Both the position numbers and the translations under genes were made by a program. This document shows, piece by piece, positions 9,776 to 64,000 of a DNA stretch of 64,000 nucleotides. The first letter of the stretch is position 1. Every line of letters starts with the position of its first letter. Location: the NCBI GenBank assembly GCA_032622095.1, contig CP136066.1, forward strand, positions 55,890,609-55,954,608, written 5' to 3'. The notes below the pieces were generated by a model. The model made no database searches. It worked only from the letters and a program-made list of their open reading frames with translations, and had not been told where the DNA came from. Source of the stretch: Siphonodentalium dalli (taxonomy: Eukaryota > Mollusca > Scaphopoda > Gadilida > Siphonodentaliidae).

Positions 9776-9894
9776 TAGTCCAGGAGATATTGGTCGACCT
9801 CTGAACCCCCCCCACCAGGACTTAGCTTCACCCCACTAATTTTCTTCCTTAAGGTCTCCTCTAATTTTTTAACAAGAAAAAAAAGTGGCCGCAG

Positions 9895-11000
9895 AGACTC
9901 CAGACAAGATGGCGTCCATCATGGCGGCCATTTTTTTTAATGCACCAGGTCTCTTTGATCGCCATTATAGTAAAGATGATAGCACATGCGGTCTTGTTTT
10001 CCGCTCGATTCGTTATGTTAATATACAACCCTTACAAATTAGCCAAAAATCCGACACCAGAATCCAATATGGCGGCCAATATGGCGGCCAAGATGGCCGC
10101 CGAAATGTGAAAATATGCTATTTTTCTGACATGTTACCACCTTTCGTTTGTCTCTGTGGGAAAATGTTAGAATGTTTGCGTCATCTTATACATTTATCAT
10201 ATAGAGGAGTCATTGGCGAACACATGGGGACCATAATATGCATTCATAGCGGGATATTTTTGTCCGATATCACGTTTTCCCAAATGCCGGTATCATAGGT
10301 CAAAGCCTAATCTCCGTTAATAACGCGATGTTATGTTTCGAATCAATGAATGTTATTGCTATTATAACAACACCCATGCATATATATTTGCAGGAGATAC
10401 TCGAGCTAGGATTCCTCTTATACCTGAGTTGAGGAATATTTACCCAAATTCCAAGATGGCGGCCAAAATGGCCACCAGAAATAAAAAATCGCCGAAAATC
10501 GCTGATTTTAACATCAGTGAGCATTATTGTCATGACAACTCCACACCTGCTTACTATTGTAAGTTGGGAACACTTAGGCGAAGAACTTTCCTTGTACCAT
10601 ATCCAAATAAAAGTCCCCCAAATCCAAAATGGCGCCCACAATGGCGGACAGATTTTGAAAAATCACCGAAATTCCCTCATATTCACATCATTGGGCATTA
10701 TTGTCGAGACAACTCCATCCATGCGTACAGTTGAGTTGGAAATACTGAGGTGAAGTAATTACCTTACATCTCATGCAAGAAATGGTTTTCCAAATCGAAG
10801 ATGGCGGCCAAAATGGCGACCGAAATTTGAAAACACGCCTACATTCCTTTACTTTCTTAGGATGGGCGTTATTGTTTCGCGATTTCTATCCACCATTACA
10901 TGTTGATATGGAATAGTGACATGAAGTATTCATTAGGGTTTGGCAATTGATACTCACAGCCAAGATCGCTGCTAAATTGGCGGCTATAAATTGAAAAGAA
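9895..11000. repeat. Tandem array of ~172-bp units inside the fold-back arm
   Basis: The motif AAGATGGCGGCC (or close variants with AAAATGGC) recurs near 9906, 10070, 10454, 10625, 10798 and 10970, at about 170 bp or a multiple. Between motifs the units share GAGCATTATTGTC-like and GAAATTTGAAAA-like blocks. Open frames of 113-137 codons here follow the repeats and contain repeat-encoded KMAAKMA-like runs, so they are not genes. Confidence 0.75.
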
Positions 11001-30785: not shown

Positions 30786-31708
30786 GTATAACTGTCGATG
30801 TTAGGTTGTAGTGGGATTAATTTGTCAGTGTTAAATCCTCGCGTCTGTCGCTGTTGTTTTTCCAAGGAAGTTTTATTGCCACTTTGCCATGTTTGTATTT
30901 GTGGAATGTTAGAATCCTTTTTATGCGCTTTCTCGGTTGCAGCGATGAGACATCCAGCTGTATAAGTAGTCGTGTGACTGAACTGGTTCGTGGGAATATT
31001 CTCGTCATATAAAACGTTGGATACATTGGTGTCGTTTGGACGAGAGGGGCACTAACATTGGTTTGAGCTCCAAAATACACCTAATAATATTCGCTTTTGA
31101 TTTTTTTCCGGTATCGAAATAGGTCGATAAATACACCGACTTACTGATGTTTAGTTAGTAGTAAAGTTAATGGCAGGGCAGTCCTACCTGAATGAATGTT
31201 GATGCAACACCGGACTTGCCGTTTATATCGAATAGTTTTCATGTACATTTTAGGCACACTGTATATGCATGGTCATTTGACACGATGGCTGTCATTTCTA
31301 TAGCAGATGTAATCAAGATATTTAGGTTATCGAGAAAGAAATTTAATGGCTAAATGTTCGACAACCAATGGTTTTATAGTATTTTGTGGATTGACAGCTT
31401 GTGATTAAATTATTGTGAAATACGCTATATAGATCGTACAATCGTGATACAAATAAGATATTTCGCTGGCGTTTGTGTGTTAACATTTCATCTTCATAAC
31501 GATATTGGTATTCATCTCAATGTCTTGACAGACTGTTAACGAATCAGAGTATACGTGGGCAAGGCGGTCCAATGAGAGCGCGGATTGTCACTAATGGGTC
31601 GTGGGTCAATAATCAGCTGACTAACATTGCCAACAGACAACGCACACTTTCATTGCGTTTTGGAATCAGCTGCCACTCGATCTGTGCAGCGCAGCAAGAA
31701 AATCGAAG
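30786..31708. other. 5' flank of the PAN-like gene; unresolved minus frame
   Basis: A minus-strand 87-codon frame (30817-31080, starting MYFGAQTNVSAPLVQ) is Arg/Lys/Thr-rich with no recognised domain. Its upstream DNA (ACACCTAATAATATTC, then CGGTATCG and GTCGATAAATAC) is a dispersed repeat also found near 39155-39215. No clear TATA box was seen before the start codon at 31709. Confidence 0.35.
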
Positions 31709-34700
31709 ATGAACCGTTTATGCCTTCTTGTTATCTGTTGCCTTCTGGTCGGGACAGCCACTGCCAAGAAGACTAAACAGACAACATTTGAAATCATTCC
31801 TGGTTGGAAAGAAAATGGCTTCAGCATCTCCCAGGTCGTTGGGGCGGGCGCGGTTTCCGAGACATCGTGTGCGACCAGATGCCTTCGACAAAACTGGTGC
31901 AGGACAGTAACATTCTTTGCGGGACTTGACACTGACCAAAACTGTTTTCTTTCATGTGAGGCCGCGGATGAGCTAGAGGAGGATGCCGGTGCCGTTCTCA
32001 TGAGAAAGATGGTGAGTGCTTTTATCGAGTTACTAATGAATAGAGCCACAGCAGGGAAGGGGATCTACTCTTGCATTTATGTTTGTCTTTTAGCGAAATA
32101 CAGCAAATCACAGGTTTCAAAATAGTTCATTAAAAACGTCTATTTTTTCCTTGGAAATTCCACAGTGGTTGCAAATCAATCGCATATTTGAATCCATGTC
32201 GCCACAATATTCCTATATTTAACACTAATTACGAAGCGATTGCGGAGTACACAAATTACGCGTGATACCAGTTTAACCAATCAACGATCAGTATATTCAG
32301 TGCGTGCTCGCCAATATATCATTGAGCTCATTTTAAATGAAAAACCTAATTTGAAATTATTGCTGAGATATGGGAAAATAGTGGCGACTTCGATTCAAAT
32401 ATCCGTTTGATTTGGGGAGATTAACTTTAGAATATGACGAAACATGAAGATTATTTTGTTAAAAATGTTGGTTTTTTATCGATAATTATTGACTTTGAAA
32501 TGGACGATATATTTTCTCCTATGCTATCAAGGGACCCATTTGCCGGTGCTCTCTCTCTGATTTTTGTGTTTAAGGGCTGTTTTCAAATTCTTGGAACAGT
32601 TTATCCTAGTGTTCTGGGACTAGAAAATATAGCTTTTACTTGATTGTGGGCGTTCGAATTTTGAGAGTCAGTTCAGGCGTTTGTGAATTATGGCCGTTAG
32701 AAGTGAGGGGTATCTGAAAAGTAAACTCCCTTGTTAAGTATGTATTGCTTATCGATACATTTTTAATGTGGCGCTCGTTTTAAACGGATATATTTTGAAT
32801 GTATATTTTACTCGTTTTAACGACACGCCCCTGTGTTGTGAACTGGTTGAAATTGTTGTACTTGTTGATCGTACCGCCAGGCGCAACTTGAACCTGTGAT
32901 TCTCGATGTACCATCGCGTCACAACAAAGTCGTACAGTAACTTTATAATATATCCATTTTCTCCAATTTGTGAGTTATTCAAACAAGGAATACGTCCTCT
33001 GTAAATCATTAACTCATTGGATCACCAGCAATACACATTAATTAATGAGCATCAAGTGCTACCCACCAGTAAGTATCCAGTTCAAAGTATTAACACGAGT
33101 ATAACACAATTGATCCTCAATTATGGGGCATGTGGGGATTTAATAAATTAACGCTATATTCTGATACCAAGGTTTCTCACACGTGGATATGTGAATAACA
33201 TGGTGTCATTGATATCATATAGTGGTAATCTTGACATATATTATTGTGTTAACTATAGTGTAGAATGTAAAACTTCAAAGATGTATTCAATATTCCAGAC
33301 CTCCAGTCACAACAACACCAACATTCAAATGCTATTTCGACATTACTCTTCGCTTTGTTTCGCTGATAAAAAGCTGATGTGACATAAACAAGACTTTAAC
33401 TCTTTCCAAACCGAATGGATTCTACCATTCAGTTATATTAGTATACATTGGAATGGTATTTTTTCATGTGGATGGATCGATCAGGCAATACATACAGACA
33501 ACATACATGTACATGCAGAATTAAACAGATAATACAAGAGAATGATTCATATTCATTGGTGGGAAATGTTCAGACGATAACTTCGTTTGTTAAACTTATT
33601 ATCTGAATATTTCCAAAAAGGGAACTACTCGTCAGTGAGTATTTAGTATAGAAAGGGTTAAAATACCGAACATTGATAGTTATCAATTGAAAAAATTAAT
33701 GCCATAATAATTGCTATTGAAGTCTTCTGAATCATCAAAACTATGTGACATGTGTGTGGACAGCTATTGTTAACAGACCAATACTTGATTTGATCTATCA
33801 CTGTGAAATCACATATGCGTTATTCAAACCGCGGTTGTTGGGGGAAATCTTCGTTGTTGTTTTCTTAGAAATTTGGTAATTTATCCATATCCATTTGAGC
33901 ATTTTGAGCTTATACAACTGTTTAACTTGATTGTTTCCAAATTCCTGTGCGGAATATTGTGGGAAATAAGGTAACCATAAGCAAAACGTCAAACAAAAAA
34001 ATTGGCTACATATTATTTTATATGTTTTTATATGTTTTATTTTACAGACACCAGCACTAAAGAACGCTAGGGGTGAGTGTATCGTATTTTATTCCCAATT
34101 AAATTCAATTGTTTTATTCTCATATATCCGGTCAAAACATGTTTACATACATGTACGCCGGTGGTGGTGAGTGGTCTATCAGTTTTTGTTTACTTAGCTA
34201 AAACAATTTTTACTCAAATCAAGTTATCAAATTTGACATACAAAGCAATATAAAGCATTACAAAATAGGCATACATCATATATATGGTAATGTAGTAACT
34301 TGGTTTGGCATCAACACTCAATGTTGGACACTTCAAATGGAGTCCTTTTGAATGTACCACTATTTGTGATTGGCACTTTTGTATTACTCCCAGGTTTCCT
34401 TTTCTCTAAGTGAGAACTCTTAGACATGATGAAATTTATTCAATACAAGTAAACATGTACACGAGCAGTCACGGAGTTAAATACATTACAACTTATCTCG
34501 TGGAAGAGAATCCTATATTTGTTGAGAAGGTGGAATCTCTATAAGTTGAATTTCTTTGTCTGAACGATTGGTCAAGTCTGGAGACAGAGATGTTATGACT
34601 CACGTTGAGATACAGTCTTCTAATAAACTTAATGATTCTAATTTCCCCTTGTAGGAATAATTTTACCATACACGTGAAATACAGGCAAATAGTCGCAGCT

Positions 34701-45078: not shown

Positions 45079-46333
45079 TAGTCCAGGAGATATTGGTCGA
45101 CCTCTGCACCCCACAGGACTCAACTTCACCCCACTAATTTTTTTTCTTAATGTCTCCTCTAATTTTTTTCGGTTGTTAACAAGAAACAAAAGTGGCGCAT
45201 AGACTCCAGACAAGATGGCGTCCATCATGGCGGCCATTTTTTTTATATGCACCAGGTCTCTTTGATCGCCGTTATAGTAAAGATGATACCACATGCGGTC
45301 TTGCTTTCCGATCGATTCGTTATGCTAATACACAACCCTTACAAATTAGCCAAAAATCCGACACCAGAATTCAATATGGCGGCCAAGATGGCCGCCGAAA
45401 TGTGAAAATATGCTATTTTTCTGACATTTCACCACCTTTCGTTTGTCTCTGTGGGAAAATATTGGCATTATGGCATGATATTATATATTTGTCATATAGA
45501 AGAGTCATTGGCGAAGACATGGGGACCATAATATACATTCATTGTGGGATATTTTTGTCCGATATCACGTTTTCCCAAATGCTGGTATAATAGGTCAAAG
45601 CCGAATCGACGTTAATAAAGCGATGTAATGTTTCGAATCAATGAATGTTATTGCTATCATAACAACACCCATGCATATATATGTGCAGGAGATAGTCGAT
45701 CTAGGATTCCTCATATACCTGAGTTGAGAAATATTCACCCTAATCCAAGATGGCGACCAAAATGGCCACCAGAAATAAAAAATTGCCTAAAATCGCTGAT
45801 TTTAACATCAGTGAGCATTATTGTCATGATAAATCCACACCTACTTACTATTGTGAGTTGGGAACACTTAGGTGAAGAACTTTCCTTGTACCATATCCAA
45901 ATAAAAGTCCCCCAAATCCAAAATGGCGCCCACAATGGCGGACAGATTTTGAAAAATCACCGAAATTCCCTCATATTCACATCATTGAGCATTATTGTAG
46001 AGACAACTCCACCCATGCTTACAGTTGAGTTGTAAATACTGAGGTGAAGGAATTACCTTACATCTCATGCAACAATTGGTTTTCCAAATCAAAGATGGCG
46101 GCCAAAATGGCGACCGAAATTTGAAAACACGCCTGCATTCCTTTACTTTCTTACGATGGGCATTATTGTTTCGCGATTTCTACCCACCATTGTATGTTGA
46201 TGTGGAATAGTGATATGAAGTATTCATTAGGGTTTGGCAATTGATACTCACAGTCAAGATGGCGGCCAAACTGGCGGTCAGGGTGAAGTTGAGTCCTGGG
46301 GGGTGCAGAGGTCGACCAATATCTCCTGGACTA
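45079..46333. mobile_element. TAGTCCAGG fold-back element, copy 3 (1.26 kb), inside LTR element B
   Basis: Same ends as 9776-13870 and the same ~172-bp AAGATGGCGGCC units, so it is a short relative of that element that keeps little beyond one arm's array. TTG flanks it on both sides. LTR element A has the uninterrupted sequence around 36440-36460 (TTTCATTGGATAC), which gives an empty-site comparison supporting insertion with a 3-bp duplication. Open frames of 130-135 codons here are repeat readings. Confidence 0.85.
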
Positions 46334-48988: not shown

Positions 48989-50498
48989 TTAGTATTTATT
49001 CAGTTTATTATGAAATAATAGCACAAATTTGAGCGGGTTTTGCAACTTCCGTTTAAACTGTAATGCATATCTCAGAAATTTCATGCTCTGTCCCGTATTC
49101 GAATCGCCTCTTTGTTTCCTCGTCTGGGCTTGGTTTATCGTGCCATTCCAGCATTCTGATATTTCATGTTGGGATTTTAACAAACCGGCTCCAACGGCAT
49201 TGAAAGCGGTACTACCCGTAACTTTTGCTGTCTTCCTCAGTGCAAACCATTCGTCAGTTCGTTGTTTCATATGCTCACTTTCCGACCCTGTATAATGTTC
49301 ATTGAGTTCATGAAGGTTCAGTTGCTCAGACACCACAACATAATTGGAAGGACAACAAGATTCCTGCTTCCCATTGTATTGAGTACACTTCCAATATGTG
49401 ACAGTTCTGTTGCGATTTCCAAACTGTCGTCAAAATGTTGGATGAATTCGCTTCGTTTCGTCCGCATCAAACATATTACAGGCTGAAACCTGGACTTGAT
49501 CCAATTACTGCCAGCCAGCTTCTAGAACTTGTCTTCTGTCAGTCGAGCTGATTCAGCACCGTCCTTTAGATTATGGTTGATATCGGCCATTCTTGTCACC
49601 AACGCTTGCAAGAGGTTAAGTAGTTCAACTGCCGATGAGTTTGGTATCATATTCAACAGTTTAATATCGTCCACTTCCATTCGTTCGGCTCATGCATTTG
49701 ATCACCATCGCTCTATCGTCCAACAGTGCTGTCTTATTTTGCTTTAACGTCGGTTCAGTTTCGTGGCCCCAGCAATCGACATCTCCCATAATCTTCCCCT
49801 TACCTCTGCATATTTTTTTCCCATCAACCGCTATTTTTATTACTTTTCGATCCACATTTTCTGCAATATTCTGAATTGCTTCGTCACAAATTCCAGGATA
49901 AGCAACTCTTGTTGCTTCCGGATATCTCATGAACGATGTATTCGATGTGGAAAACCAATTTACCACATCCAGGAAAAGGAGATAGCAAATGTTATCAAGA
50001 GGTAACTCGTCCTGTGCAACAAAACGATTAAACTTCATAAACATGTCGACCTGGCCCTCGAGTTCTAGATTTCGTAACACATCGGGTAGCATCCTGGAGA
50101 GTTGAGATAATTCTACGGGCATCATCATTAAAGTTCATGGTGTCGCTGTCAAGTTCATCGAGATCATCGTCATCAATCATCGAAACTATCATGGTCTCGG
50201 AACCAAAGTCGAGCGTCCTTTTAACTGGTGTGTTTAACCTTTTCACCTTCGAATGAATATTGAGAATAAATGTGTTTTCATTATTCACAACAATACGTTT
50301 CCCCTCCCGTTCTAAGTCCACCGGAGCTATTCCCGAATGAACCTTTTTGGCATATTTTTCTGTCCCACTTTTTGTGTCGAAAATACTTTCCAGATACCGG
50401 AGTTCTTCGTCTTTGTGTAAATCAACAATATGATCAACGATATTCTCGAGGTCAGCAAATTTTGTCCCGCAGTTAAAACATTTATATTTGAGTGCCAT
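48989..50498 (-). pseudogene. Broken gene: C2H2 finger plus YqaJ-like nuclease
   Basis: The start at 50498 gives MALKYKCFNCGTKFADL, a finger completed by HIVDLH, then an acidic region. A splice acceptor (CGTTCTCGTTTCAG) ends 9 bases upstream, implying an upstream non-coding exon. Near 50100-50150 the frame shifts into LSRMLPDVLRNLELEGQVDM, YLLFLDVVNWFSTSNT and IAVDGKKICRGKGKIMGDVD. It breaks again before NLLQALVTRMADINHNLKDG, has a stop after LTEDKF and ends with RTDEWFALRKTAKVTGSTAF. The last motif resembles the start of YqaJ/lambda-exonuclease-type nucleases; the rest of that domain is missing. The order matches, from memory, a multi-copy invertebrate family, probably mobile in origin. Frameshifts and truncation make it non-functional. 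Confidence 0.7.
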
Positions 50499-50507
50499 GC
50501 TTGCAAC

Positions 50508-51443
50508 TGAAACGAGAACGAAAAATATATTAGTTCCAAATAAATATAGTGTTATTGTCGGTTGCCAAACACGCAAGTCAAATTATATATTTATTACACA
50601 CCTATTGTGTTAATTTTCTTATATTGAGCAGTGTAGCCCATACAATATCTTTACCAGCGTATTCAACACGTATACAATACGGAAAACGTCGACGTCACGA
50701 GTCACAAATTACGTCAACTTTATCTTTTGAACAAGAACTACAAACTTTATTAATAAAGTCGCCTATCAGTTTGATAAAAATGGCTATAAATTACGACAGA
50801 AACGAATCAATAAACGCTAAATCTCGATGTTGAATAGTTCTAGTGGGTGTGTAATAAAACACAACCACACATTATGTGTGCGTGGTGAGAAAATTAAATT
50901 ATGCTGCAAGTTACAACTCGCGCCCCATCGTTGTAACGTTGTAACATTCCGCGTAACAAACTCGTGCGTTAATTTTCACGTCATGCACACATATGTGTGG
51001 TTCTGTCTATTTTATATGAATGAATAATCATTCCAGAGTGTATTTATAAAATAATATATGCCAGAAGTTGCATATTGTTGGCTTTAAAGTGCTAAATTGG
51101 AGCTTGGTCAATATTTACCACATGCCTATCAACAATGCCACTTGCCTATCATAACATGTTTGTGCTTTGCCATGATCCTATCTGCGGAGGCAATATGCCT
51201 GTCATAAATTTGTGATATGACACTCAGGAAAATCGATATTTTTCCACGAAAAATATGTCTTTTATGGTGGATTTTGGTTTCATTGTATCAATGGAATGTG
51301 CATCTAGTGACATGTGTACATGAAGCCTACATATCGAGATTTCTACCATTTATATTAGGTAGTTTTCTTTGATAAACGACAAAAACCGGTTGTAAAATTC
51401 GACAAATTAAGTAATAAAAAATATATCTAAAGGCACACGGCTA
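50508..51443. other. 5' flank of the broken gene, no gene seen
   Basis: AT-rich. Phrases of the type ATGCCTATCA recur near 51122, 51144 and 51188, resembling a short dispersed motif. No supportable gene. Confidence 0.45.
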
Positions 51444-57108: not shown

Positions 57109-57116
57109 TATAAATA
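57109..57116 (+). promoter_or_regulatory. TATA box of the repeat-protein gene
   Basis: TATAAATA lies 49 bases before the proposed start codon, predicting transcription from about 57138-57145 and a leader of about 20-27 bases. The distance and context fit a core promoter. Confidence 0.6.
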
Positions 57117-57164
57117 TTACTACACGCTGAGGGAGCAAACAACAAACACTGTTCACCAAGAAAG

Positions 57165-60100
57165 ATGAGGATCTACTTGATTGCCGTGCTCATAGCCTTA
57201 GCAGGTGAGTTATACTAGCAATATCATAATTATATATACATTATAGCAGCTTGGACACAAAATAATTTAATAACGTGAAAATAATTTGCTGGGCAATGCT
57301 TAAACTAAGTGAAGTTTTATATATATGCCCGTTTTTTTTTAAACGGGACGTATTATGTTATTGGTCCGTCCGTCGAGACGTCTGTTCGTACGTCCGTTCA
57401 CTATTTGTTTCCGGATAATAAGTTTAGATAGTTTCCTGCAACTGAATAGAATCAAATTTAGTATGTGAGTTTACTAGCACAAAATACAGGTCAATTTCGA
57501 ATTCGGGTTCCGCCCGCCAATTTTAACCAGACTCGTGGCCCTCAATTTTCGTTTTCGGATGATAACATTAATAACTCTGAACTGAATCGAATGACATTTG
57601 GTATACGTGTGTATATTAGCCCAAAATACAGGTCAAGTTCGAATTTGGATTCCGACCGCCAACGTTCAACATAGTTATGGCATTTGTTGTAATTACCACG
57701 GGCGTAATTTTCCACACCCTATAACGATGCGGTTGATCATTGGTATACTGCGAATTAACTTTCATTCCAAAGCCGAGAACCCTGTAAAACTCCTGCACAA
57801 ACTCCAAGCGTGAATATTCGGCCAATGACATATATACCACAGCAGTTTTCCAAAGGGTACAATCCACGACTAATTCTAATCTTGATTCTGGCAAGTGTGA
57901 CCTAAATGCATTTATCACACAATTAGCCGCTAAATCCGGCCTAATGTCTTTTAGTAAGACGCATGTATTATCGGCACGCACATCCACAGGTCCCTGGCAC
58001 AATAGACTCCCACCACCCAAAGACATATGTCTTTGGGAGGTGGGGGTCTATTGTGCCAGGGACCTGTGGAACTACCGACACGGACAAGATGTCCATGATA
58101 GCAACAGTTACTGACAAACCTGGCCAGATAAACACATTTGGTGACCGTCCCTTGGAGGCACATGTCTTTTGTTTTTTCCCGGCATCGAAATAGGTGGATA
58201 AATACATGAAATACCTTTCCACAAACATTATATGTTCCAGAAAGATGCATTGAAGTCTGTTCTAGTTATAAAATATCCCCACTTGGAACACAATCTTCGG
58301 ACGAGAGCAGCCATTACGCTATATGTATAAGCGAGACAACTGGGTCGCTACCATATTAGATCTATCCAGCCCCGTTCCGCACATTCATGAATATTCGAAA
58401 CTCCATATATGGAATGCTAATCCAGAACTTTGACCTGTAGCACTTAAACCGCGAAATGGGTTGGATGGATACCATATTTGGTAGCGACTAAGTGATCTCG
58501 CTTATTTCTTAATTTCCCGATTCAGAAACGGAATAATGCGCGATTGTTTGGAAAACGTATATTGTGTTGTCTTAAATGGGAACATCGCTCTCTTGTTTCT
58601 TTTTTATTATTATTAAACATGAAACATATGTAATACCACATAGCAAGTTCATTATCGCTGCCAGCTCTAAATTATCCTCACATGCAGGCATGGTCTACTA
58701 CGTCGCGGCCATAGTGGATGCATCCATGCAGACACCGTTCCGCGTTTTAAGTGCCGCAGGTCAAAGTTCTGGAGGTGCATTCCCTATATGGAATTCATGA
58801 ATATTCATGAATTCCATATATGGTCTACTCATACACCTGGCACATGACCATATAGTCACCCCCTGTTTACATATTTACCACATTCGCATGATCATGCAGT
58901 CACTCCTTGTACACACATTCACCTCACCATTAACCATACAGTCACTCCCTGTATACCTATTCGCCACACCCATGGTCATTTGGCCACTCGATATATACAT
59001 ATGCACCCCACCCATGACCACAGTCACTCCATGTATACATATACGCATCACCAATGGCCATACAGTCCTTCCAGATATACCAATACACCGCACACATGAG
59101 CACTCATATCTTCCATACGTGCATATACACCTCACAATTAAGCAACTCGCTATATACTCATACACGCCATCCATGAACATATAGCTACTCCCTGTATACC
59201 TATACACCCACCAATGATAATACACCCACGACATATATAAATATACACCACACCCATTACCGCAAGGGCACTCCCTATATAGCCACACGCTATCCCAATG
59301 ACCATCCATTATACTCCATGTATACATATAGACTTCAATATTGGCCGTACAGTCATTCCATGTACACATATACACATTACATATGATGTAGCCATACAAC
59401 AACTCCATATTTATACATACACCCCACCCATGATCATAGGGACAACACATGTATACATATACACCCATCTGTTCCAGTACAACCACCAAGGTACACTTGT
59501 TCATCTCACCCATCAACACACGGTCACTCCATATATACAAGAACAACATATATATGACTATGTAGCTACTCTCGTTATATCCATACTGCAACTTGTAAAT
59601 GACAACCAGAATAGAACATTTAGTTGTCAGTTGATTAACTAACATATCTAATAACCAAGTGACTCACAAATTGCCACCTTTTAGGAACAGCAGATAATAA
59701 AGTTCGGGATATATGTAAAAATAAAAATAAACTTTCTACCAAATTTGGTTGACATTTTGGAAGTCATCTTGACTAATTTGGTCTACAAACACCGTAGTAT
59801 GACACATTTAAGATATATCAAAACAATAAGCACCTTTCATACCAACGATAGTTACATTTTACTTGAACAAATGGTCCAAACTTGAAAAGTGAATTTTTGC
59901 CGTTAATTATGTCACGTTTGTGAGAGAAAAATCCAACGTTCTGCTGACATTTGTGACAATTAACCAAGGTGCATCAGACATGTTAGTATTCAATGTATGA
60001 AAGGCAGAATAGTCAATTTTATACACCAACCCCAACTTGTAAGCGATTGCAGGGCACGTTGGGGCAATGTCTACCATGTTCCATATTTTGGCGGCCATTT

Positions 60101-63100
60101 TGAGCCAAAGTAACACTTTTGGTTCCAATGAGTTGGAATATATATTCATGGGTAATGGATTGCCTCACTTACATTACACATTTCTGCTCATTCCTTGGTA
60201 AAATATGACTATAGAATCCTAATTGCAATTTTTTGGTGAAATTTTTTATCGCGTTCTGTAAAATCGATTTTTTGAGGGATCGGAAGGGCTAGTACCCAAA
60301 TAATTGCATACATCTTTGCTCCAATGATCAGTCAACATAAAAAATACAAAATAAAGTTACAATAATTCTCAACCATTTCCAAACTGCAGAAACTGCTCTA
60401 GAAGATATTAGTGAAAAAACGTCCTATTATCCACTTCGGGTGGCCATATTGGATGGGGAGTTCCTCTTTCGCCCTATAAAGGTGGCATTATGACTTAGCT
60501 AAACAATTTGCATCAAACTGACTGAGTGCCTATCTGAAAACGGCGGCCATGGTGGACGCCATCTTTTTCTTTGCCACTTTTTTTGAGTTGACATTGCTTA
60601 AAAATTGAAGGACATAATACGAAACAAAATGAGTGGGATGAAATTAAATCCCGAGGGCCTGCAGGGGAACACTATCAACTCCCGGACAAAAGCGCTTTAA
60701 ATGTTTCGTCGTCAAAATTTGTTTGGACCTGTATAGCCTAATCCACGTGACACGTCATGTGGATGAAGCTTGTAATATATGTGCACACATCTACGTGTCT
60801 ACGTATTTCACAGTTACCAAGGACACATAATACGCACAATCCCTACACTGCGTATAGAAACGATAGAAGAACAATAGCTCTGGTGCCGCGCTAGTACACG
60901 TTACCTTTTACTTGTAACTGACCCCGGCGTTGATGGAAATATGAAAACAGTATATATGGTACAATAACAAGTGACAATCTTAGAAAGACACACATGAACG
61001 AACAGACGACGAACTAAAAAAATTAATTCGGCGGTCGACAGTCAAATTATGTTGCTTTAAGAAGCAAAACAAGAAACACTACACTGATAATTTTCTTTGC
61101 AGTTTGCGCTTCGGGAAACCCTCTAAGAGGAGACCTGAGCAAGAAGAATGGGGGACACAGTGACTTGGAACGTGACGTAAGAAGCAAGAAGGGATCCGGT
61201 CATGATGACCACAGCGGGAAACACAGCGACTTGGAACGTGAGGTCCGAAGCAAGAAGGGATCCGGTCATGATGACCACAGCGGAAAACACAGCGATTTGG
61301 AACGTGAGGTCCGAAGCAAGAAGGGATCCGGTCATGATGACCACAGCGGAAAACACAGCGACTTGGAACGTGAGGTTCGAAGCAAGAAGGGATCCGGTCA
61401 TGATGACCACAGCGGAAAACACAGCGACTTGGAACGTGAGGTCCGAAGCAAGAAGGGATCCGGTCATGATGACCACAGCGGAAAACACAGCGACTTGGAA
61501 CGTGAGGTCCGAAGCAAGAAGGGATCCGGTCATGATGACCACAGCGGAAAACACAGCGACTTGGAACGTGAGGTCCGAAGCAAGAACGGATCCGGTCATG
61601 ATGACCACAGCGGAAAACACAGCGACTTGGAACGTGAGGTCCGAAGCAAGAAGGGATCCGGTCATGATGACCACAGCGGAAAACACAGCGACTTGGAACG
61701 TGAGGTCCGAAGCAAGAAGGGATCCGGTCATGATGACCACAGCGGAAAACACAGCGACTTGGAACGTGAGGTCCGAAGCAAGAAGGGATCCGGTCATGAT
61801 GACCACAGCGGAAAACACAGCGACTTGGAACGTGAGGTCCGAAGCAAGAAGGGATCCGGTCATGATGACCACAGCGGAAAACACAGCGACTTGGAACGTG
61901 AGGTCCGAAGCAAGAAGGGATCCGGTCATGATGACCACAGCGGAAAACACAGCGACTTGGAACGTGAGGTCCGAAGCAAGAAGGGATCCGGTCATGATGA
62001 CCACAGCGGAAAACACAGCGACTTGGAACGTGAGGTCCGAAGCAAGAAGGGGTCCGGTCATGATGACCACAGCGGAAAACACAGCGACTTGGAACGTGAG
62101 GTCCGAAGCAAGAAGGGATCCGGTCATGATGACCACAGCGGAAAACACAGCGACTTGGAACGTGAGGTCCGAAGCAAGAAGGGATCCGGTCATGATGACC
62201 ACACCGGAAAACACAGCGACTTGGAACGTGAGGTCCGAAGCAAGAAGGGATCCGGTCATGATGACCACAGCGGAAAACACAGCGACTTGAAACGTGAGGT
62301 CCGAAGCAAGAAGGGATCCGGTCATGATGACCACAGCGGAAAACACAGCGACTTGGAACGTGAGGTCCGAAGCAAGAAGGGATCCGGTCATGATGACCAC
62401 AGCGGAAAACACAGCGACTTGGAACGTGAGGTCCGAAGTAAGAAGGGATCCGGTCATGATGACCACAGCGGAAAACACAGCGACTTGGAACGTGAGGTCC
62501 GAAGCAAGAAGGGATCCGGTCATGATGACCACAGCGGAAAACACAGCGACTTGGAACGTGAGGTCCGAAGCAAGAAGGGATCCGGTCATGATGACAACAG
62601 CGGAAAACACAGCGACTTGGAACGTGAGGTCCGAAGCAAGAAGGGATCCGGTCATGATGACCACAGCGGAAAACACAGCGACTTGGAACGTGAGGTCCGA
62701 AGCAAGAAGGGATCCGGTCATGATGACCACAGCGGAAAACACAGCGACTTGGAACGTGCGGTCCGAAGCAAGAAGGGGTCCGGTCATGATGACCACAGCG
62801 GAAAACACAGCGACTTGGAACGTGAGGTCCGAAGCAAGAAGGGATCTGGTCATGATGACCACAGCGGAAAACACAGCGACTTGGAACGTGAGGTCCGAAG
62901 CAAGAAGGGATCCGGTCATGATGACCACAGCGGAAAACACAGCGACTTGGAACGTGAGGTCCGAAGCAAGAAGGGATCCGGTCATGATGACCACAGCGGA
63001 AAACACAGCGATTTGGAACGTGAGGTCCGAAGCAAGAAGGGATCCGGTCATGATGACCACAGCGGAAAACACAGCGACTTGGAACGTGAGGTTCGAAGCA

Positions 63101-64000
63101 AGAAGGGATCCGGTCATGATGACCACAGCGGAAAACACAGCGACTTGGAACGTGAGGTCCGAAGCAAGAAGGGATCCGGTCATGATGACCACAGCGGAAA
63201 ACACAGCGACTTGGAACGTGAGGTCCGAAGCAAGAAGGGATCCGGTCATGATGACCACAGCGGAAAACACAGCGACTTGGAACGTGAGGTCCGAAGCAAG
63301 AAGGGATCCGGTCATGATGACCACAGCGGAAAACACAGCGACTTGGAACGTGAGGTCCGAAGCAAGAAGGGATCCGGTCATGATGACCACAGCGGAAAAC
63401 ACAGCGACTTGGAACGTGAGGTCCGAAGCAAGAAGGGATCCGGTCATGATGACCACAGCGGAAAACACAGCGACTTGGAACGTGAGGTCCGAAGCAAGAA
63501 GGGATCCGGTCATGATGACCACAGCGGAAAACACAGCGACTTGGAACGTGAGGTCCGAAGCAAGAAGGGATCCGGTCATGATGACCACAGCGGAAAACAC
63601 AGCGACTTGGAACGTGAGGTCCGAAGCAAGAAGGGGTCCGGTCATGATGACCACAGCGGAAAACACAGCGACTTGGAACGTGAGGTTCGAAGCAAGAAGG
63701 GATCCGGTCATGATGACCACAGCGGAAAACACAGCGACTTGGAACGTGAGGTCCGAAGCAAGAAGGGATCCGGTCATGATGACCACAGCGGAAAACACAG
63801 CGACTTGGAACGTGAGGTCCGAAGCAAGAAGGGATCCGGTCATGATGACCACAGCGGAAAACACAGCGACTTGGAACGTGAGGTCCGAAGCAAGAAGGGA
63901 TCCGGTCATGATGACCACAGCGGAAAACACAGCGACTTGGAACGTGAGGTCCGAAGCAAGAAGGGATCCGGTCATGATGACCACAGCGGAAAACACAGCG
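57165..64000 (+). CDS. Secreted protein of ~42 or more 22-residue repeats (3' end beyond window)
   Basis: Exon 1 (57165-57204) encodes the start of a signal peptide and ends in phase 1 at GTGAGT. A 3.9 kb intron ends at TTTTCTTTGCAG and exon 2 (from 61103) completes MRIYLIAVLIALAVCASG. After a linker NPLRGDLSKKNGG comes one diverged half-unit and then about 42 units, each with HDDHSGKH, then SDLEREVRSKK and GSG, open to the window end (about 979 residues so far). Each unit uses only H, D, S, G, K, L, E, R and V: five acidic, five basic and three His residues, no aromatic, Cys or Pro. Expected to be secreted, disordered or helical in the LEREVRSKK part, and able to bind metal through HDDH and HSGKH. 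Each unit ends RSKK, a possible but non-ideal convertase site, so it could be a peptide precursor, an adhesive or matrix protein, or a mucus component. Differences between units are mostly silent. Confidence 0.8.
57410..57690. repeat. Direct repeat, ~140 bp x 2
   Basis: Phrases CAAAATACAGGTCAATTTCGA, shortened by substitution in the second unit, GGATTCCGACCGCCAA-like and TTCGGATGATAACATTAATA-like recur twice at about 130-140 bp spacing. Non-coding. Confidence 0.6.
57616..58026 (-). CDS. Unidentified 136-codon frame inside the intron
   Basis: The central part, RADNTCVLLKDIRPDLAANC then SHLPESRLELVVDCTLWKTA and EYSRLEFVQEFYRVLGF, looks coding. Its first 15 or so codons read the arm of a palindrome and its last 25 read the ~140-bp repeat, so both ends are doubtful. 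Possibly a relic of a mobile element or host gene piece. No family recognised. Confidence 0.25.
   Translation of the reverse strand: MSLGGGSLLCQGPVDVRADNTCVLLKDIRPDLAANCVINAFRSHLPESRLELVVDCTLWKTAVVYMSLAEYSRLEFVQEFYRVLGFGMKVNSQYTNDQPHRYRVWKITPVVITTNAITMLNVGGRNPNSNLTCILG
57983..58070. repeat. Near-perfect palindrome (88 bp)
   Basis: TCCACAGGTCCCTGGCACAA pairs with its inverse ending at 58070 around an AAAGACATATGTCTTT centre. It overlaps the 5' end of the minus frame at 57616-58026. Confidence 0.9.
58170..58330. repeat. Dispersed repeat shared with 39170-39310
   Basis: Shares GGCATCGAAATAGG or CGGTATCG then GATAAATAC, ACCTTTC, ATTATATGT and GCATTGAAGTC in order with 39180-39290, and partly with 31110-31130. 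Non-coding. Confidence 0.55.
58327..58505. repeat. Imperfect palindrome (179 bp)
   Basis: TAAGCGAGACAACTGGGTCG pairs with its inverse at the right end, with mismatches. An inner arm (58386-58455) also pairs with 58739-58803, so the region holds overlapping inverted repeats. Confidence 0.6.
58840..59560. repeat. Degenerate minisatellite, ~60 bp units, ~12 copies
   Basis: Units combine CAGTCACTCC, TGTATACATATACAC and CCACCCATGACCA with drift. A 256-codon minus frame and 114-125 codon plus frames follow it; the translated sequence is itself a degenerate Tyr/Cys/Met-rich repeat, so I do not consider them genes. Confidence 0.7.
60530..60694. mobile_element. Decayed right end of a TAGTCCAGG-type element
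   Basis: AAAACGGCGGCCATGGTGGA near 60538, then GAGTGGGATGAAATTAAATC, GGGCCTGCAGGGG and ATCAACTCCCGGAC follow the same order as the right end of 9776-13870 (AGTGGGGTGAAGTTAAGTCC, TGCAGAGG, ATCTCCTGGAC), with substitutions. The left end was not found. An old member of the family inside this intron. Confidence 0.45.
61201..64000 (+). repeat. 66-bp coding tandem array, ~42 copies in the window
   Basis: Every unit is exactly 66 bp (22 codons), with no indel seen. Most contain GGATCC. Variants include silent changes (GAT, GTT, GGG, AGT, TCT) and a few replacements (K to N near 61587, S to T near 62205, E to K near 62290, H to N near 62596, E to A near 62759). The array runs off the right edge, so the true copy number is unknown. 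Confidence 0.95.

Follow-up and report, generated by a model that had tools for sequence, protein, structure and literature searches.

The window analysed here, a stretch of 64,000 nucleotides (G000:C6:55890609-55954608) from a source genome of 2.23 Gb in nine contigs, ends in a predicted gene whose promoter, signal-peptide exon, intron and repeat exon are listed in Table 1, together with the repeat units of its relatives. Exon 1 comprises 40 bases, begins with an ATG and ends in phase 1, and its phase-1 join to the repeat exon at 57204/61103, as claimed by the earlier note, is borne out by the sequence: the joined product is MRIYLIAVLIALA-VCASGNPLRGDLSKKNGG-(HSDLEREVRSKKGSGHDDHSGK)n, with no stop within the window, and the reading across the two exons is MRIYLIAVLIALAVCASGNPLRGDLSKKNGG, followed by HSDLEREVRSKKGSGHDDHSGK repeats. 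Inspection of MRIYLIAVLIALA and its conservation predict a functional signal peptide.

Table 1. Features of the gene in the window (window positions) and repeat units of the other subfamilies (contigs)
Feature	Position	Strand	Remarks
TATA-type core promoter TATAAATATTAC	57109..57120	+	TATAAA in all 17 aligned copies
Exon 1, coding part: signal peptide MRIYLIAVLIALA and first base of the next codon	57165..57204	+	21 genomic copies
Intron, GTGAGT donor (GT at 57205) to TTTGCAG acceptor (ending at 61102)	57205..61102	+	splice sites kept, intron body diverged
Exon 2 start: end of signal peptide and linker VCASGNPLRGDLSKKNGG	61103..61155	+	conserved in subfamilies A-D
Array of 66-bp units coding HSDLEREVRSKKGSGHDDHSGK	61156..64000, on to a stop at window-equivalent 65739	+	
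Subfamily B unit GDLEREVRSKKGSGHDDLGKKKG	C3		23 aa
Subfamily C unit HSDLERDVRSKKGSGHDDHDDHHGK	C4		22/25 aa
Subfamily D unit HSDLEREVRSKKGSGHDDHHGGHKGSGHGG	C5 and C2		30 aa

Tandem repeat analysis (TRF) returned a period of 66 (22 aa) with 43.1 copies and 98% matches at 61155-64000, in agreement with the strict 22-residue periodicity described previously, and the count of nine amino-acid types per unit was likewise confirmed, the consensus of this unit (subfamily A) containing neither Thr nor Ala. Within the window the 43 complete units differ from their consensus by 14 silent and 6 amino-acid-changing differences. The array continues beyond the window to about position 55956347 of the same contig (G000:C6), giving about 69 units and a precursor of 1,558 residues, or about 171 kDa minus the signal peptide. 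The repeat frame had been described as free of methionine, which holds inside the window but not for the complete frame: this ends in HSDLERSRM-stop, and that final residue is the sole Met after the start codon. No AATAAA was found within 1 kb past the stop, and the gene may have a third exon. Two unit pairs (61288-61419 and 63004-63135) share two identical silent changes at a distance of 1,716 bp (26 units) and are the trace of a block duplication within the array.

The intron contains a 44-base palindrome without a spacer (57983-58070, 95% perfect) and a 61-base inverted pair (58399-58459/58735-58795), both of which look like small mobile-element remains, as well as degenerate repeats at 58818-59560 (CACTCC.TGTATACATATACACC-like; TRF period 82 at 58938-59103). 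Elsewhere in the window we observed an exon-like frame, MNRLCLLVICCLLVGTATAKK..., on the plus strand at 31625-32125, which starts like a signal peptide and matches the PAN_1 domain above the Pfam cut-off (E 5e-5), two similar dispersed repeat copies with related open frames on the plus strand (9873-10734 and 45180-46035), and neighbouring minus-strand frames at 48989-50582 whose sole family match is a weak one to a zinc finger and which look like transposon or host-gene parts. A search against Rfam returned no family within the window.

A family of signal exons and repeat arrays

Searching the whole 2.23 Gb with a signal-exon pattern allowing up to 3 mismatches returned exactly 21 signal exons, and the reversed pattern used as a control returned 0. 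Twenty of the 21 are intact, and each of these is followed, 4-41 kb downstream, by an array on its own strand (20/20; the pairing was derived by comparing the coordinates of separate searches), the paired arrays being 8 of subfamily A, 3 of B, 2 of C and 7 of D. Because exon 1 recurs 21 times against none for the reversed pattern, with the arrays on the same strand, the structure of the gene in the window is not due to chance; this gene belongs to a set of about 20, spread over five chromosomes and using four types of unit, a context that could not be visible to a reader of the window. Of the eight arrays of subfamily A, with the 22-aa unit, six lie at 88.56-88.97 Mb of C3 and the other two on C6. 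The largest members of the family have open frames of up to 2,825 aa and arrays of up to about 126 units, and the unit has a 16-residue core, DLEREVRSKKGSGHDD. Search hits are the only source for three of the D arrays, one of the B arrays and several decayed ones. The twenty-first signal exon (C4:89481105) has two extra bases inserted in its signal sequence, and the 10 kb read there contain no array.

Exon 1 is 96.5% identical across the four subfamilies and the 60 bases preceding it 81%, while identity in the intron falls from 84% in its first 12 bases to 49% and 32% in the next two stretches. Both the donor GTGAGT and TATAAA, the latter 45-56 bases ahead of the ATG region, are kept in 17/17 copies read. 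At the other end of the intron, the acceptor TTTGCAG and the downstream TTTGCGCTT are identical in 14/14 aligned copies, in which bases -100 to -31 from the acceptor are 30% identical. Just upstream of the acceptor, an ATG (MFFAVCASG...) occurs in subfamilies C and D and, within subfamily A, in the copies on C3; it is missing from the gene in the window, its C6 sister and subfamily B, and so unspliced initiation there is no general explanation.

Several observations were made alongside these searches. Decayed arrays of another unit type (DLEREVRYKKGSGHDDLSKKKGGHS), in which Tyr or His replaces Ser8, lie at C2:119817500-119820499 and C5:152858000-152860499 and contain stops and frame shifts. 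Inside the 41-kb intron of a subfamily D gene, the minus strand of C5:196583300-196593299 has open frames of 525 and 344 aa, which probably belong to a mobile element whose insertion made the intron longer. At C1:108127492-108128832, in a chromosome-scale contig and adjoining a 100-N gap, a mitochondrial-type cox1 is followed by nad2, with an open frame when translated by the invertebrate mitochondrial code; this stretch either was inserted there or stems from a join made in scaffolding. Searches for the beta-sandwich of molluscan haemocyanin and for haemerythrin gave no match, both being weak negatives because exons are searched one at a time.

Constraint on the encoded protein

In most arrays, synonymous variants in frame +0 reach up to about twice the expected number (for example 18/32 against 8.7 expected, 22/43 against 12.1 and 9/16 against 4.5), with little or no excess in arrays C3b and C3d. 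When the array variants were compared in the other forward frames and in minus frames 0 and 2, no synonymous excess was seen; frame -1 shows part of it, because its wobble positions are shared with frame +0. Coding on the opposite strand or in another frame was considered and rejected, since the frames lacking the excess also gain stops, the stop-free state of frame +0 being itself partly built into the definition of arrays as open stretches. Differences between the consensus cores of the subfamilies are almost all silent, including serine AGC versus TCC, a switch requiring two base changes. Open arrays make up 18/20 of those with a signal exon and 1/8 of those without (Fisher p=2e-4), the latter having been tallied from best-hit lists and their tally thus possibly incomplete; because the copies share a common descent, their counts are not independent of one another and such figures serve as guides, not as exact probabilities. 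The pairing of signal exons with arrays, the conservation of exon 1, splice sites and promoter as against the intron, the open arrays, the synonymous bias and the decay where exon 1 was lost together uphold the earlier reading of a spliced gene and, as evidence drawn from sequence, argue that this is a coding, spliced gene family of about 20 members on five chromosomes.

Residue conservation was determined over 969 units, without the motif being imposed, and over their 232 distinct DNA cores. Arg7 is unchanged in 969/969 units, even though 35/232 distinct cores use another Arg codon, and the distinct cores retain Lys9 in 99.1%, Arg4 and His14 in 98.7% each, and Asp1 and Lys10 in 97.0% each, with Glu5, Val6, Ser8, Asp15 and Asp16 kept in 76-89%. 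In a decayed array on C2, Arg7 is down to 65% and Lys10 to 82%. Both His of H-x-x-H are near 99% in subfamily A, where the DD of HDDH is often GG, and in subfamily B position 17 is Leu instead of the second His, so that H-x-x-H is lost. The fixed elements are therefore the R4-x-x-R7-x-K9-K10 cassette and, outside B, the H-x-x-H pair. The His-Asp cluster (HDDH) singled out in the earlier note is not, by these alignments, the most constrained part of the unit; the arginine/lysine cassette is. The constraint on His14, Asp1 and Leu2 comes close to that on the basic residues, and constraint by itself is therefore no proof of cleavage. R-x-x-R-x-K-K, found in every unit and highly constrained, is not an optimal furin motif, R-E-V-R and R-S-K-K being weak furin/PC sites.

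The A unit, a polyampholyte, has as many basic as acidic residues (5 each), 3 His and a GRAVY of about -2. AlphaFold2, run on four units with 12 family rows, gave a mean pLDDT of 54, a pTM of 0.12 and no secondary structure; on this prediction the repeat protein is likely disordered, although it may fold upon binding metal or mineral. The mature protein contains 0.1% Pro and 0.1% Thr, and a mucin-type reading was rejected because both residues are nearly absent. No family match was found in Pfam (best E 0.42, under the cut-off), no relative among PDB chains (best E 6.7), no relatives of the repeat in the bacterial/archaeal and viral collections, and no occurrence of the letters of the unit in the literature searched. 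The sequence family thus appears undescribed, as had been supposed, and its architecture of a known kind; homologues in related species may sit among unnamed predicted animal proteins, since animal protein databases lay outside these searches.

Processing of the product and its alternatives

The reading we prefer, with a probability of about 0.5, is that these genes form a lineage-specific family and encode tandemly repetitive secreted precursors which are cut by proprotein convertases into His-rich peptides of about 20 residues. In the gene structure, which sequence comparison shows, the core promoter and the signal peptide belong to exon 1, and the near-identical units of 22-30 residues, dozens of them and at most about 126, are all encoded by a single exon beyond a long intron. 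The product, a giant polyampholyte predicted to be disordered, would enter the secretory pathway, where proprotein convertases may cleave each unit at RxxR and/or KK; a single messenger could therefore yield dozens of His-rich peptides of about 20 residues, in bulk, and the H-x-x-H pairs may give the released peptides metal or pH-dependent binding. We propose more tentatively, as possible rather than probable, that the family represents an undescribed, lineage-specific class of giant polyproteins which floods a secretion with H-x-x-H peptides cut at R-x-x-R-x-K-K, the 22/23/25/30-residue variants tuning histidine content.

A serious competitor, to which we give somewhat less than even odds, is that the giant protein acts whole, as a disordered, polyampholytic, His-rich matrix, mucus or glue protein in which H-x-x-H binds metal or mineral and the balanced charges associate. 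Subfamily A keeps H-x-x-H at about 99% even as the two Asp between the His give way to Gly. This, the balance of basic and acidic residues in each unit and the lack of a predicted fold are all consistent with an uncut protein, as is the sponge protein glassin, whose His/Asp-rich tandem domains deposit mineral (PMC10772126). However, the most strongly constrained part of the unit is the R-x-x-R-x-K-K cassette, and subfamily B has lost H-x-x-H altogether.

Precursors of signalling or antimicrobial peptides, released from a prepropeptide at KK sites, would likewise combine a signal peptide with regularly spaced basic sites, and LGKKK in the B units is a possible amidation-plus-cleavage site. We nevertheless consider this improbable: in A, C and D units KK is not preceded by Gly, and neuropeptide precursors are not known to approach a family of about 20 genes and arrays of up to 126 units. 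Membrane-active peptides typically have an amphipathic or hydrophobic part, which the peptide released here, being strongly hydrophilic, would lack.

That the arrays are a non-genic minisatellite, open by chance as 66 is a multiple of 3, might be suggested by their strong homogenisation and by the several frames, on both strands, that are long and open in the window, but it is very unlikely given the synonymous bias in a single frame, the one-to-one pairing with signal exons, the conserved splice sites and promoter, and the decay once exon 1 is lost. An unspliced gene initiated at the ATG just upstream of the acceptor, which the subfamily A C3 copies and subfamilies C and D do have, can be practically dismissed, as that ATG is missing from the gene in the window, its C6 sister and subfamily B and as it would leave 21 conserved signal exons unexplained.

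Genes of this kind are easily missed or mis-framed in annotation, because the sole start codon lies in a 40-base exon kilobases away and because the repeat frame is Met-free while other frames are not. As the arrays on several chromosomes homogenise separately with the protein core unchanged, the residues that are needed can be read directly.

Comparison with known systems

The closest parallel that we can name is provided by the notothenioid AFGP genes, a two-exon multigene family in which exon 1 encodes the signal peptide and exon 2 a tandem-repeat polyprotein, and in which some copies are pseudogenes without exon 1, a decayed chimeric copy being one such (PMC10256766). The architecture is shared but there is no sequence kinship: AFGPs consist of Thr-Ala-Ala with cleavable Leu-X-Phe spacers, which do not occur here, and belong to fish with about 14 copies at one locus, whereas the present family has a charged unit of 22-30 residues in about 20 genes on five chromosomes.

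Multi-copy neuropeptide precursors also combine a signal peptide with dibasic (KK) sites at regular intervals; the present genes differ from them in having far more units and gene copies and, in A, C and D, in lacking the amidation Gly before KK. Hexactinellid glassin is likewise secreted and includes disordered, His/Asp-rich segments arranged in tandem (PMC10772126), and may be regarded as an analogue in composition, although its tandem combination of HD with Pro-rich and His/Thr-rich domains has no counterpart in a protein in which Thr and Pro are nearly absent.

Tandemly repetitive polyproteins have been described as rare; their repeat region has few introns or none, and furin-like basic motifs separate the units (PMC3079579). 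The genes described here have the signal peptide and the head-to-tail, near-identical units in one uninterrupted exon that place them beside this class. In nematode polyprotein allergens and profilaggrin, secreted or processed repeats are similarly separated by furin-like motifs, with few or no introns (PMC3079579), but their units are much longer, those of the allergens being folded and lipid-binding, whereas here they have 22-30 residues, are predicted to be disordered and would be cleaved only on the reading preferred above. If the units are cleaved, these genes would constitute a new family among the tandemly repetitive polyproteins; if they are not, their products would be a new giant, charged, histidine-rich secreted material.
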